A stretch of 14,892 nucleotides of DNA, from contig JAHKZT010000011.1 of NCBI GenBank assembly GCA_020626475.1, positions 1 to 14,892 of the forward strand, given 5' to 3'. The position numbers were made by a program, and so were the translations under genes. Every line of letters starts with the position of its first letter. Within the stretch, counting starts at the first letter, position 1. Below, one piece after another: positions 12,274 to 14,892 of this stretch. The notes beneath the pieces are model-generated. The model saw nothing but the letters and a program-made list of their open reading frames with translations. It had not been told where the DNA came from and searched no databases. Source of the stretch: a bacterium. GTDB taxonomy: Bacteria; Patescibacteriota; Saccharimonadia; Saccharimonadales; Saccharimonadaceae.

Positions 12274-12855
12274 TTAGCTTTTAGACATATCCGGCGACGT
12301 GGTGGTAGACTGACCCTGATAAACTCCTGCATATGGAGCGGAAGTAGACTTATCAAGCTTCATAAATATAAGCTGTCCGACCGTATCGTATGGACGCAGA
12401 AGTATCGGAACCGGTGCTTCATTCTTGAGCTCGAGCGTAATTCTGCCTTCGAAACCGGCATGGATAAACGCAGCTGTCTGAATCACAAGTCCCATACGGC
12501 CAATAGAAGAACGGCTATCCACCATCGCCATTACGTCATCGGGGAGCAGCAAATACTCATCGGAAGTCGCCAGGCAGAACTCTCCAGGATGAAGGAAGAT
12601 TCCTCCACCATCAAGTTCAGGCATCAGCTTATAGTCGTACTTCCCAGATACCTCAAGATAACCGAGCCTGCTCGTATCAATCTGCTTGAAACCATGCCCG
12701 AGCCTAACATCCAGATTATCCGGACCGACTTTACTCAAAACATAATCTTTCGCATTAACATCGCGCTCCTGCTTCGGGTCATACACGACACCCTCGCAGC
12801 GTACAAGCTGTCCTTTAGCAATATAACTCTTAATTGTGTCTCCGCAAAGAACCAT
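12274..12855 (-). CDS. dcd: dCTP deaminase
   Basis: A 193-residue enzyme that converts dCTP to dUTP, feeding dTTP synthesis. Motifs: HPGEFCLATSDEY at 89-101, SRSSIGRMGL at 114-123, and HAGFEGRITLELKN at 132-145 with Glu142 at the place of the catalytic Glu of E. coli Dcd. QLIFM and YxGVYQGQ (to 182) close the trimer-type active site. Some relatives are bifunctional and also split dUTP to dUMP; which form this is cannot be decided by eye. Length matches the family. AAGGAGG lies 9 bases before the ATG. It is transcribed from a consensus promoter about 95 bases upstream through a leader with alternative hairpins. Confidence 0.93.
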   Translation of the reverse strand: MVLCGDTIKSYIAKGQLVRCEGVVYDPKQERDVNAKDYVLSKVGPDNLDVRLGHGFKQIDTSRLGYLEVSGKYDYKLMPELDGGGIFLHPGEFCLATSDEYLLLPDDVMAMVDSRSSIGRMGLVIQTAAFIHAGFEGRITLELKNEAPVPILLRPYDTVGQLIFMKLDKSTSAPYAGVYQGQSTTTSPDMSKS

Positions 12856-12899: not shown

Positions 12900-12932
12900 C
12901 GCTCTAAAAAAACGAGCGAGTTTTACCTCGCT
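12900..12932 (-). promoter_or_regulatory. Attenuator-like leader of dcd
   Basis: On the minus strand AGCGAG (12927-12932) pairs with CTCGCT (12915-12920) around GTAAAA; after CG comes a run of seven T (12912 down to 12906). This is terminator-like but lies between the promoter and the dcd start. Downstream GAGCG (12900-12904) can instead pair with CGCTC (12914-12918), which would break the first stem. The two hairpins exclude each other, the usual layout of attenuation. Confidence 0.5.
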
Positions 12933-12948
12933 ATACAACATAACGTAT

Positions 12949-12977
12949 ATTATAGCACACTTAGGCCAAAAAGTCAA
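12949..12977 (-). promoter_or_regulatory. Sigma70-type promoter of dcd
   Basis: On the minus strand TTGACT (12972-12977) and TATAAT (12949-12954) are 17 bases apart, with TGC before the -10. Of the 29 bases, 24 match the promoter at 466-494. Confidence 0.88.
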
Positions 12978-12994
12978 TAACACTCAAATAAACC

Positions 12995-13115
12995 CCTCTT
13001 AGTCTAGACAGATAGCAAGAGCGCAGCAGTCGTCCGGCCTGTCGTTACAGGCGGACGCTGCTTTTGCTCGTCCGTAGCCTCCGCAAAGCTCTTGCCATCT
13101 GTCCATACTAAGAGG
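12995..13115 (-). ncRNA. Structured element E1, putative non-coding RNA
   Basis: Bases 12995-13022 and 13088-13115 form a 28-position stem. Read as minus-strand RNA it has 25 Watson-Crick pairs, two U-G pairs (at 13006/13104 and 13014/13096) and one G-A mismatch; on the plus strand those U-G pairs would be A-C mismatches, so the minus strand is the better RNA. Inside are two hairpins: TTTGC/GCAAA (13063-13067 with 13083-13087) and GCAGC-GTCCG-CCTG closing a TAACGA hexaloop with a bulged C. The core matches E2 on the other strand. No long reading frame, not a tRNA. No family recognised. Confidence 0.55.
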
Positions 13116-13128
13116 ATTTCATTGGCTC

Positions 13129-13136
13129 TATTATTA
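13129..13136. promoter_or_regulatory. Possible divergent -10 region between E1 and E2
   Basis: The 24-base AT-rich spacer between the two elements contains TATTAT on the plus strand (13129-13134), whose expected start point is the first base of the E2 stem, and TAATAAT on the minus strand (13136-13130), whose start would be about 8 bases before the E1 stem. No -35 boxes are evident. Confidence 0.25.
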
Positions 13137-13139
13137 ACT

Positions 13140-13269
13140 AAAGCCTCCGAGCTACTTGCTCCTTATGAAGCTCGCGCAGCCTACGGGCGAGCGTGAGGAG
13201 CGAGCTACCCGTAACGACGGGCTAGCTCGACGACGTTCTTCTTAAGGAGCAAGTAACAATGAAGGCTTT
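13140..13269 (+). ncRNA. Structured element E2, putative non-coding RNA related to E1
   Basis: AAAGCCT (13140-13146) pairs with AGGCTTT (13263-13269); after an internal loop TACTTGCTCCTTA (13153-13165) pairs perfectly with 13243-13255; then GAAG with CTTC (13167-13170, 13238-13241). Inside are CTCGC/GCGAG (13171-13175, 13187-13191) with a loop holding CCTACGG, and CGAGCTA-CCCG (13201-13211) pairing with CGGG-C-TAGCTCG around a TAACGA hexaloop, with the same bulged C as E1. Its right edge is 5 bases from the polA -10 box, so it could also act on polA expression as DNA or as leader RNA. Confidence 0.55.
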
Positions 13270-13274
13270 TAGGT

Positions 13275-13280
13275 TATAAT
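13275..13280 (+). promoter_or_regulatory. -10 box of polA, leaderless spacing
   Basis: TATAAT ends 6 bases before the polA ATG at 13287. No Shine-Dalgarno precedes the ATG. The matching -35 position would lie in the right arm of element E2 and shows no consensus. Confidence 0.6.
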
Positions 13281-13286
13281 AATGTT

Positions 13287-14892
13287 ATGAAGGATAATCT
13301 TACAATCATCGACGGCAAAAGTGTTTTTTATCGCGGCTATTACGCCATGGGACACCTTTCATTGCCAGATGGCACGCCAACTGGCGGCGTCTTTGGCTTC
13401 GCCACGATGCTAATTGAGATTATCGAAAAACTCCAGCCAGAATACATAGCCGTCGCTTGGGATAAGCCGAAGACCAACATCCGTCGTCGCCGTAAGATTT
13501 ATGCCGATTACAAAGGAAATCGCAAACCAGCTCCAGATGATTTTTACGCCCAAATCCCATATCTAATGGAGCTCCTCGAGGCCTTCCATATTCCGCTCTA
13601 CGAATTCGACGATTACGAAGCCGACGATATCATCGGCACTCTAGCACGCAAAGCTGACGCCAAAAATGTACGTGTCGAAATTATTTCCGGCGACCTCGAT
13701 ATGCTTCAGATCGTCGATAACGACATCCATATGTATCAGCTCAAACGTGGCTTTAGCGACGTTCAGAAGTTCGATATCGCCGCTGTAGAAGAGAAATATG
13801 GCCTCAAAAAATCCCAATTCCTCGATCTTAAATCCCTCAAAGGTGACTCCTCGGATAATATTCCAGGCGTACCAGGCATCGGCGAAAAAGGCGCCGTCAA
13901 ACTATTACAAGAATACGAGACACTCGACAACTTATATAACCATGTCGATGAAATTCCGGGCGCAACTGGCCAAAAGCTAAAAGACGGCAAAGAACTCGCA
14001 TATATCAGCAAGCAGCTCGCACAAATTCAATTCGATGCGCCAGTCGAGTTCGACCCGAACGGCACAAAGCTCGCAGATTTCAACCCAGATAACGTTCTAG
14101 CTGTGCTCAAAAAATACCAATTCAATTCGCTTGTCGCTAAGTTCAAAAAAATATTCCCGAATGCCAACAGCACACCCATCGTAGCCGCAAAGTCAGAACA
14201 AAAACCGGAGAAAAATGTTGTAAAACCTACAACAAAATATAGCCTGCCAGAGCCAAAGAACATCGATATTGGAATACCAGAGAATCTTTATATCTCCAAA
14301 GACGTCAAATCTAGCATGCACGATAATGATACGCTCGCAAAAGAAATCATCGCAGGTCGTCCATATTGGGACCTCGGCCAAGTTGATTTCTTACTCGACC
14401 CGCTCGCGCGCAAAACTGACCAACTCGAATTAGTCGTCAGCGACGAAAAAGAGGATTACGTCAAACAACGCCAGCAACTCGCCGCGGTACCAGAACTCGA
14501 ACGCATTGCGACCGAATTCGACCTCCCGCTAATTCCGGTTCTATTCAAGATGGAACAAGAGGGTATTAAGATCGATAAAGGCCGTTTCGATGCGCTCGCA
14601 AAAGAATTTAGCTCCGAACTCACTGAGCTTGAAAAAGAAATACATGAGCTAGCAGGGCAGAGTTTTAATATTAACTCACCAATCCAGCTTTCTGAAATTC
14701 TTTTCGATAAGCTTGCACTCCCAACCAAAGGCATCAAAAAGACTACGCGCGGCTATTCCACTGGCGCCAAAGAGCTCGATAAGCTCCGCGACCTCCATCC
14801 AATCATCGCCAAGCTCGAACGCTACCGCGAAGTCAGCAAGCTCCTCAGCACTTACATTACGCCACTCCCGGCCCTCGCCGACGATAATCTCC
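13287..14892 (+). CDS. polA: DNA polymerase I, N-terminal 535 codons (runs off the window)
   Basis: Begins MKDNLTIIDGKSVFYRGYYA and stays open to the right edge. Residues 1 to about 290 are the 5'-3' exonuclease domain that removes RNA primers: YKGNRKP, DDYEADDIIGTLA, SGDLDMLQIV, and LKGDSSDNIPGVPGIGEKGA with its metal-binding Asp residues and helix-hairpin-helix. From about residue 403 (ELERIATEFDLPLIPVLFKM) the polymerase domain begins, including the FNINSPIQLSEILFDKL segment. The roughly 110 residues between lack the DxE motif of a proofreading exonuclease and resemble the shrunken, inactive domain of Taq-type enzymes. Used in Okazaki fragment processing and repair synthesis. Leaderless start; divergent from dcd. 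Confidence 0.95.
   Translation, partial: MKDNLTIIDGKSVFYRGYYAMGHLSLPDGTPTGGVFGFATMLIEIIEKLQPEYIAVAWDKPKTNIRRRRKIYADYKGNRKPAPDDFYAQIPYLMELLEAFHIPLYEFDDYEADDIIGTLARKADAKNVRVEIISGDLDMLQIVDNDIHMYQLKRGFSDVQKFDIAAVEEKYGLKKSQFLDLKSLKGDSSDNIPGVPGIGEKGAVKLLQEYETLDNLYNHVDEIPGATGQKLKDGKELAYISKQLAQIQFDAPVEFDPNGTKLADFNPDNVLAVLKKYQFNSLVAKFKKIFPNANSTPIVAAKSEQKPEKNVVKPTTKYSLPEPKNIDIGIPENLYISKDVKSSMHDNDTLAKEIIAGRPYWDLGQVDFLLDPLARKTDQLELVVSDEKEDYVKQRQQLAAVPELERIATEFDLPLIPVLFKMEQEGIKIDKGRFDALAKEFSSELTELEKEIHELAGQSFNINSPIQLSEILFDKLALPTKGIKKTTRGYSTGAKELDKLRDLHPIIAKLERYREVSKLLSTYITPLPALADDNL

Follow-up and report, generated by a model that had tools for sequence, protein, structure and literature searches.

A probable non-autonomous mobile palindrome with a conserved folded core in one family of Saccharibacteria

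Background

Very small symbiont genomes are expected to have lost selfish DNA. REP, BIME and REPIN sequences are repeated palindromes that often occur as inverted pairs, a REP being a hairpin of 20-40 bases; the ends of MITEs are conserved inverted repeats of a parent transposon; and copies of Rickettsia palindromic elements (RPEs) conserve sequence along their whole length. In the parts of PMC10969869 drawn on here, RPEs are described as small palindromes of several families that lie in frame within unrelated genes of a reduced genome, and bacterial MITEs (ERIC, RUP, BOX and QMITE) as short, non-autonomous elements that are at times fused in frame. Template-switch (quasipalindrome) mutation makes a reverse-complement copy of nearby sequence and gives a perfect stem in one event, as outlined in the excerpt of PMC8794818 used in this study, and the mitochondria of Nematomorpha carry long inverted repeats within translated genes, according to the abstract of PMC6649704.

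The elements examined here, E1 and E2, appear by analogy to behave most like RPEs. Like RPEs, they belong to small palindromes, about 100-150 bases long as judged from folds and inverted repeats, that are found in frame in unrelated genes, with a net length divisible by three in 68 of 73 comparisons. Unlike RPEs, only a core is kept and the outer stem varies by site (mean identity of 0.30 for the arms and 0.63 for the core), the fold is three-way and probably includes a kissing pair, and numerous copies lie between genes, at gene edges. Because conservation along the whole length, a trait of RPEs, was tested and was not found, the elements are set apart by description and are not classed as RPE members. 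They resemble MITEs in being short and non-autonomous, with some in-frame copies, but their outer arms are unrelated from copy to copy and do not form conserved terminal inverted repeats, and no parent transposon was found in a search for the families Y1_Tnp and RVT_1. Repeated palindromes in inverted pairs also recall REPINs, whereas the element is a Y-shape of 110-130 bases, unlike REP, and Y1 transposase was found in none of 20 element-bearing genomes. In contrast to template-switch mutation, which the excerpt of PMC8794818 describes as spontaneous, stem formation here is tied to the arrival of a conserved mobile core, and no repeated conserved core is described for the coding palindromes of Nematomorpha in the abstract of PMC6649704. 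Among the papers listed for Saccharibacteria or Patescibacteria with noncoding RNA, inverted repeats, and palindromic or mobile elements, none was seen to describe the element.

We consider it probable (about 0.7) that E1 and E2 are copies of a non-autonomous mobile palindrome of one Saccharibacteria family, one that works like RPE and is built differently. Copies are spread over the family, are present or absent between relatives, and lie in frame in housekeeping genes of the sister genus g27.

Results

Within the window (the whole stretch of 14,892 nucleotides that was analysed), E1 and E2 point outward from a short AT-rich spacer between two genes that we take to be dcd and polA, names given in the earlier note that agree with the sequences. 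The two structured elements were found at the positions claimed there (Table 1). The folds of E1 (-75.5 kcal/mol, z -10.7) and E2 (-67.5 kcal/mol, z -7.0) were matched by 0 of 200 shuffled sequences each, and the reverse strands also fold well (z -8.6 and -8.0), which is expected because E1 and E2 are palindromes. GxAGxCTACGGRCGAGC, GTAACGAC and a bulged C are common to both elements, just as had been noted, although GTAACGAC is better seen as a tetraloop, AACG, with U-A and G-C as the closing pairs. The family had not been recognised, and a comparison with Rfam agreed: Rfam 15 at gathering threshold gave 0 matches in the window, and positions 12900-13340 at a relaxed threshold gave one weak match (E 1.7) and nothing credible. 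A tRNA scan of the window found none. Two copies of the window genome (L068 and L069) reach contig ends, as assembly-breaking repeats would.

Table 1. Features of the dcd-polA region of the window
Feature	Position	Strand	Evidence
dcd	12274-12855	minus	
dcd promoter TTGACT ... TATAAT, just outside E1	12949..12977	minus	sequence; present too in L164 and L172
Whole E1-spacer-E2 insertion	12980..13268	none	absent at the site in G033 (L164) and G029 (L172)
E1	12995-13118	minus	fold
E1 3' outer-stem arm	12995..13022	minus	inverted repeat I1, fold
E1 arm 2, bulged C and loop GTAACGAC	13025..13062	minus	fold; core covariation, 138 copies
E1 arm 1, loop CUACGG	13063..13087	minus	fold; core covariation
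E1 5' outer-stem arm	13088..13115	minus	inverted repeat I1
AT-rich spacer separating the outward-reading E1 and E2	13119..13141	none	sequence
E2	13142-13269	plus	fold
E2 5' outer-stem arm	13142..13171	plus	inverted repeat I2, fold
E2 arm 1, loop CUACGG	13172..13197	plus	fold; covariance model match
E2 arm 2, loop GTAACGAC	13199..13236	plus	fold; covariance model match
E2 3' outer-stem arm	13238..13267	plus	inverted repeat I2
polA -10 box TATAAT, just outside E2	13274..13279	plus	sequence; offsets across many copies
polA	from 13287 (ATG at 13287)	plus	

The covariance model match on E2 stops 14 bases before the polA -10 box. The polA loci examined come from 30 of 44 genomes that had a polA match; one locus (L192) is short, and the E1-E2 pair was found at only one of these 30. 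In G033, the closest relative (93% identical over the part of polA used), and in G029, the dcd-polA order is kept as far as can be seen, with a short spacer and no element; both relatives (L164 and L172) read AAAAAGTCAATATTAGAGTATAATAGAGTTATG at the insertion site, and neither contains a model match. Because the two relatives share the short spacer, an insertion in the window genome is simpler than two deletions. The insertion left both promoters intact, and the pair most probably does not regulate dcd and polA, contrary to one of the roles proposed in the earlier note.

There were 10 occurrences of the pattern CTACGGNCGAGCN{6,30}GTAACGAC, spread over 5 of 61 genomes, and this core pattern read backwards gave 0 matches in the 61 genomes, so that the forward matches are more than chance. 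The 10 copies were aligned without the use of structure, and 23 of the 34 consensus pairs in this alignment had at least one change on both sides. The first covariance model, built on this alignment, detected the element in 30 of the 45 genomes of the genus and in 75 of the 244 genomes of the class, the latter in 7 of 108 genera, all of one family, with a marginal match only (E 9e-4) in one of the seven. The class-wide search scored at most 15 candidates per genome, and its per-genome counts are thus lower bounds. With a second covariance model, G194, a genome of 700 kb, yielded 33 copies and G236 yielded 10, with weak matches among them. Among named genomes, a DNA pattern matched at least 119 stretches; each of the 80 matches listed bore a Candidatus Saccharibacteria title, and a ruminant gut sample was named in over half of these 80 titles. 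One DNA pattern run against viral contigs gave 0 matches. At L080:3991-4242 of G029, two near-identical tandem copies lie upstream of one gene, MKILGIESSCDET, the gene presumably being tsaD.

The core was analysed in 138 matches from 100 sources (99 of 100 stretches and the window), aligned to the model; the set includes some orthologous copies from sister genomes. It is predicted to be a Y-shape in which two hairpin arms stand on a long outer stem and their loops appear to kiss. Of its 23 pairs, kissing pairs included, 21 had changed on both sides, and core cells were paired in 94.7% of cases, compared with 73.2% when partners were shuffled and 29-46% when partners were slid; the 138-copy alignment was fitted to the model and so leans towards structure, whereas the 10-copy alignment was not. 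The final arm-1 loop base, taken with base 3 of the arm-2 loop, gave GC in 100 copies, UA in 32, GU in 1 and no pair in 4, and the CG pair next to them was retained in 136 of 137. Judged from these base combinations, the loop pairs are likely what a two-base-pair kiss would give, and the GC/UA exchange may stem from one or a few old events, the 32 copies not being 32 independent changes. Between different gene edges of different genomes, mean identity was 0.30 for the outer arms and 0.63 for the core.

In the sister genus g27, many copies lie within coding sequence, in host genes that include what we take to be ileS, pheT, lepA, leuS, valS, gatB, uvrB, alaS, obgE, der and truB. At the ileS and pheT loci, 34 of 35 model matches are in open frame, and in-gene copies are oriented sense (29) or antisense (5) to the gene. 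A clean empty site was found in ileS by comparison of G194 with G236, and three more were found on a syntenic stretch of the same two genomes, in genes that by sequence are gatB, uvrB and leuS. TCTTCG is repeated at one ileS site, and no clear target-site duplication was seen at other sites. In LepA the insertion point lies between residues 190 and 191 of a solved protein, 3cb4 (presumably LepA from E. coli), where two matched stretches meet. In genus g29 (L207, L208, L213 and L215), LepA is seemingly encoded by two open frames, split at the domain boundary where other genomes have the element, and the second frame begins MKPLKALIFDSYYDDYRG.

After removal of four duplicate loci, 73 of 105 candidate comparisons of filled and empty sites were in genes (26 elements). 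Net length was a multiple of three in 68 of the 73 before filtering, and the five exceptions (L144 three times, L355 and L356) all involved partners other than the one kept. Filtering for flanks that were both at least 75% identical, a net difference of at least 75 nt and one partner per element kept 19 comparisons and dropped 7 of the 26 elements; L355, L356 and L383 were kept, but each of them also had a partner of higher identity and smaller net difference that was left out. Net length was a multiple of three in all 19 filtered comparisons, several of which represent the same ileS or pheT site in different genomes and are not independent events. Stem lengths are given here by a measure that replaced a more lenient one, which had overestimated them.

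The 19 inserts exceed the core by 9 to 50 nt, with a mean of 31.5 nt, compared with mean lengths of 29.3 for one stem arm and 58.6 for two. The two arms summed were longer than the extra DNA in 17 of 19 comparisons, the remaining two being without a detectable stem, and in 8 of 8 comparisons with both flanks at least 80% identical. The simplest reading of these lengths would be that about one stem arm pre-existed the insertion and that the other is its reverse complement. At one ileS site the codons of the 5' arm follow those of the empty site one by one and the copied arm is the 3' arm; in leuS the native arm is the 3' arm. These two were the only ones of 21 insertions in which a test for homology between arm and empty site gave p<0.01, so the claim of one native arm in general rests on lengths. 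A reverse-complement control of the test also gave 2 of 21, but since either arm is similar to the other arm's reverse complement, this control lacks independence.

The dcd-polA site departs from this pattern: the outer stems and the spacer are all missing in the relatives, and the arms there look new. So do both arms of the copy in the groES-groEL gap of the window genome (G000). The simple form of the one-native-arm model fails to explain these two loci.

A strand bias was observed in the intergenic copies of genus g1, in line with the strand-specific wobble described in the earlier note. In the outer stems, G.U pairs on the sense strand outnumbered A.C combinations by 196 to 85 (p 3e-11), and the bias was seen in 61 elements compared with 18 biased the other way and 21 ties. 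In the stems outside the modelled part, which matters because the model used to find the copies tolerates G.U, the counts were 79 and 42 (p 0.001). The bias held for either direction of the 3'-side gene, with the element (132 vs 60) or against it (48 vs 24). In the g27 set, the counts of 56 and 41 did not differ significantly (p 0.15). The bias is explained by selection on the fold of the sense strand, whether as RNA or as single-stranded DNA; strand-biased deamination of a single strand would explain it too.

Placement in g1 is also regular. The 3' end of the element adjoins a convergent stop codon, within -7 to +14 bases in 28 of 35 cases, or precedes a -10 box, by 13-16 bases in 23 of 58 cases, and 5' distances are broad. 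Among pairs less than 600 bases apart in the list from the genus search, counted by eye, 15 point outward (2 of them orthologues of others), 0 inward and 2 along the same strand. The G of a TGnTATAAT-like context was commoner beside elements (80% of 47) than elsewhere (54% of 194); the context as such also occurs at other promoters of the genus, and the possibility that the element is a promoter carrier was rejected on that ground.

By a rough clustering of neighbouring proteins, 70 of the 100 elements with a gene on the 3' side lie at 20 edges that recur in at least two genomes, sister genomes being counted as well. At the same edge in different non-sister g1 genomes, core identity was 0.635, compared with 0.639 by chance, and identity was slightly higher than chance for the inner 5' arm (0.416 vs 0.350, 0 of 400 permutations) and the inner 3' arm (0.401 vs 0.355, 4 of 400 permutations). 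Because cores outside sister genomes carry no orthology signal, the recurring edges look like favoured sites of repeated landings or exchanges, and inheritance of the elements at conserved gene edges was rejected. Likeness of the inner arms but not of the cores is an independent sign for the one-native-arm model.

Candidate mobilising enzymes were searched for in 34 genomes. None of the 20 element-bearing genomes had Y1_Tnp, compared with 5 of the 14 others; RVT_1 was found in 9 of the 20 (8 of 11 in g27 and 1 of 9 in g1) and in 3 of the 14. The RVT_1 genes of g27 are in genomes G194, G251, G231, G095, G283, G232, G141 and G178. A reverse transcriptase was rejected as a requirement for mobility in g1, where RVT_1 occurs in one of nine genomes. 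Neither Y1_Tnp nor RVT_1 being required, no mobilising enzyme was identified among the two families searched in these 34 genomes.

Discussion

The results suggest that the mobile unit is the core of about 65 bases, consisting of the arm 1 and arm 2 hairpins with a two-base-pair kiss between their loops. Each insertion appears from the measured lengths to add this core and about one arm. We infer that the DNA end receiving the core folds back, copies 20-30 bases of its own flank and returns to the template, by template switching or by snap-back synthesis. The outer stem would then consist of one native target flank, on either side, and a new inverted copy of it. One strand only would fold, as RNA or single-stranded DNA, as the wobble bias of the intergenic g1 copies suggests. 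Because inserts amount to the core and about one arm, outer stems that are unrelated between copies and still complementary are best read as target flank plus inverted copy and not as a product of compensatory evolution.

This bears on the argument of the earlier note that compensatory change favours selection on RNA structure over a copied mobile repeat. Covariation is supported in the core, where 138 aligned copies changed on both sides of 21 of 23 pairs, and the search with a covariance model that was suggested there yielded further copies with paired substitutions, which agrees with the proposal of a repeated structured element of this lineage. The outer stems, also cited as compensatory change, are better explained by an inverted copy of target DNA, and the opposition to a mobile repeat did not hold, as the element proved to be one for which empty sites exist. 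We tentatively suggest, as a possibility with the odds somewhat against it, that this is a new kind of mobile element: its inherited part would be limited to a fold of 65 bases whose two arms kiss, it would carry no transposase, and its long outer stem would be built at each landing by reverse-copying of 20-30 target bases. Every copy would thereby become a nearly perfect palindrome specific to its site, which essential enzymes of ultra-small bacteria tolerate as an in-frame peptide.

Other explanations differ in what they ask of the stem and of the gene edges. The g1 elements might be kept for a function, as once mobile and now domesticated cis- or trans-acting RNAs selected for their fold. 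The sense-strand wobble bias, which holds whichever way the 3'-side gene runs, the abutment of the 3' end on a convergent stop (28/35) or a -10 box (23/58), and the 70 of 100 elements at 20 recurring edges are all consistent with this; against it, the edges recur outside sister genomes with unrelated cores (0.635 vs 0.639), so that the elements seem not to have been inherited with those genes, the pair occurs at only 1 of 30 polA loci, and g27 has the same core within coding sequences, so we regard such a function as unlikely. If instead the core inserted into the tips of existing hairpins such as terminators, both outer arms would be native and complementary stems would need no copying, and the short hairpin without a core that L089 (G008) holds at the site of one L085 element would fit. 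However, in the filtered set of 19 (7 of 26 elements having been dropped for smaller net differences or weaker flanks) the inserts are 9 to 50 nt longer than the core, no such palindrome was seen by eye in the empty sites of ileS and leuS, and the L089 hairpin could equally be a deletion between two-base repeats; insertion into hairpin tips is in our judgement distinctly improbable. Long stem-loops at gene ends would also suit intrinsic terminators or insulators, but TTTT follows the 3' end in 17 of 94 g1 copies and the 5' end, as a control, in 17 of 94, AAAA is found at the 5' end in 21 of 94 and, as a control, at the 3' end in 12 of 94, and 38 of the 138 matches lie between divergent genes, where no neighbour is transcribed into the element. 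Intrinsic termination was rejected for want of an excess of T-runs after the stem, and we give terminators or insulators very little weight.

Two further readings concern how copies move or are tolerated. Outward-paired palindromes recall REPINs and thus REP-like sequences moved by RAYT or an IS200-type Y1 transposase, but Y1_Tnp was absent from the element-bearing genomes tested (0/20, compared with 5/14 others) and the element is far longer than a REP; this reading was rejected and is hardly credible, a past enzyme since lost being possible. A conserved compact fold with a likely tertiary contact within essential genes could point to in-gene copies that are spliced out of the mRNA like introns. 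Splicing, however, needs neither a net length that is a multiple of three (68/73) nor an open frame (34/35), and the copies lie in both orientations to the gene (29 sense and 5 antisense), which makes intron-like removal extremely improbable. A mobile palindrome remains our preferred explanation for E1 and E2.

The 33 model matches in about 700 kb of G194 occur despite the small size of that genome, and the essential genes that g27 copies occupy include ileS, lepA and leuS. Should the outer stem be a copy of target DNA, a signature of RNA selection can be mimicked without compensatory evolution, and stems that are unrelated yet complementary are then a warning for discovery based on covariation. 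If true, the proposed mechanism would also provide a mobile-element route to long hairpins and new protein loops in one step. With many filled and empty sites at hand, the mechanism is directly testable.

Several observations were made at single sites. Close relatives carry different elements at the same gene edge (L124 of G035 and L126 of G034), and G035 has seemingly retained a broken 5' part of an old element beside the new one. G008 is without most of the element present in G032 (L089 and L085, respectively) and has a short hairpin left, which reflects either deletion or the state before insertion. G194 also carries a palindromic insertion of a second, different type (GGGCCTGCCGCCACATGTTCCCCCACC...) at L448:16759-16863, absent in G236, and an insertion in ileS of G192 (L376) resembles this GGGCCTGCCGCCACATGTTCCCCCACC palindrome; insertions of this type are perhaps another family of in-frame palindromes.
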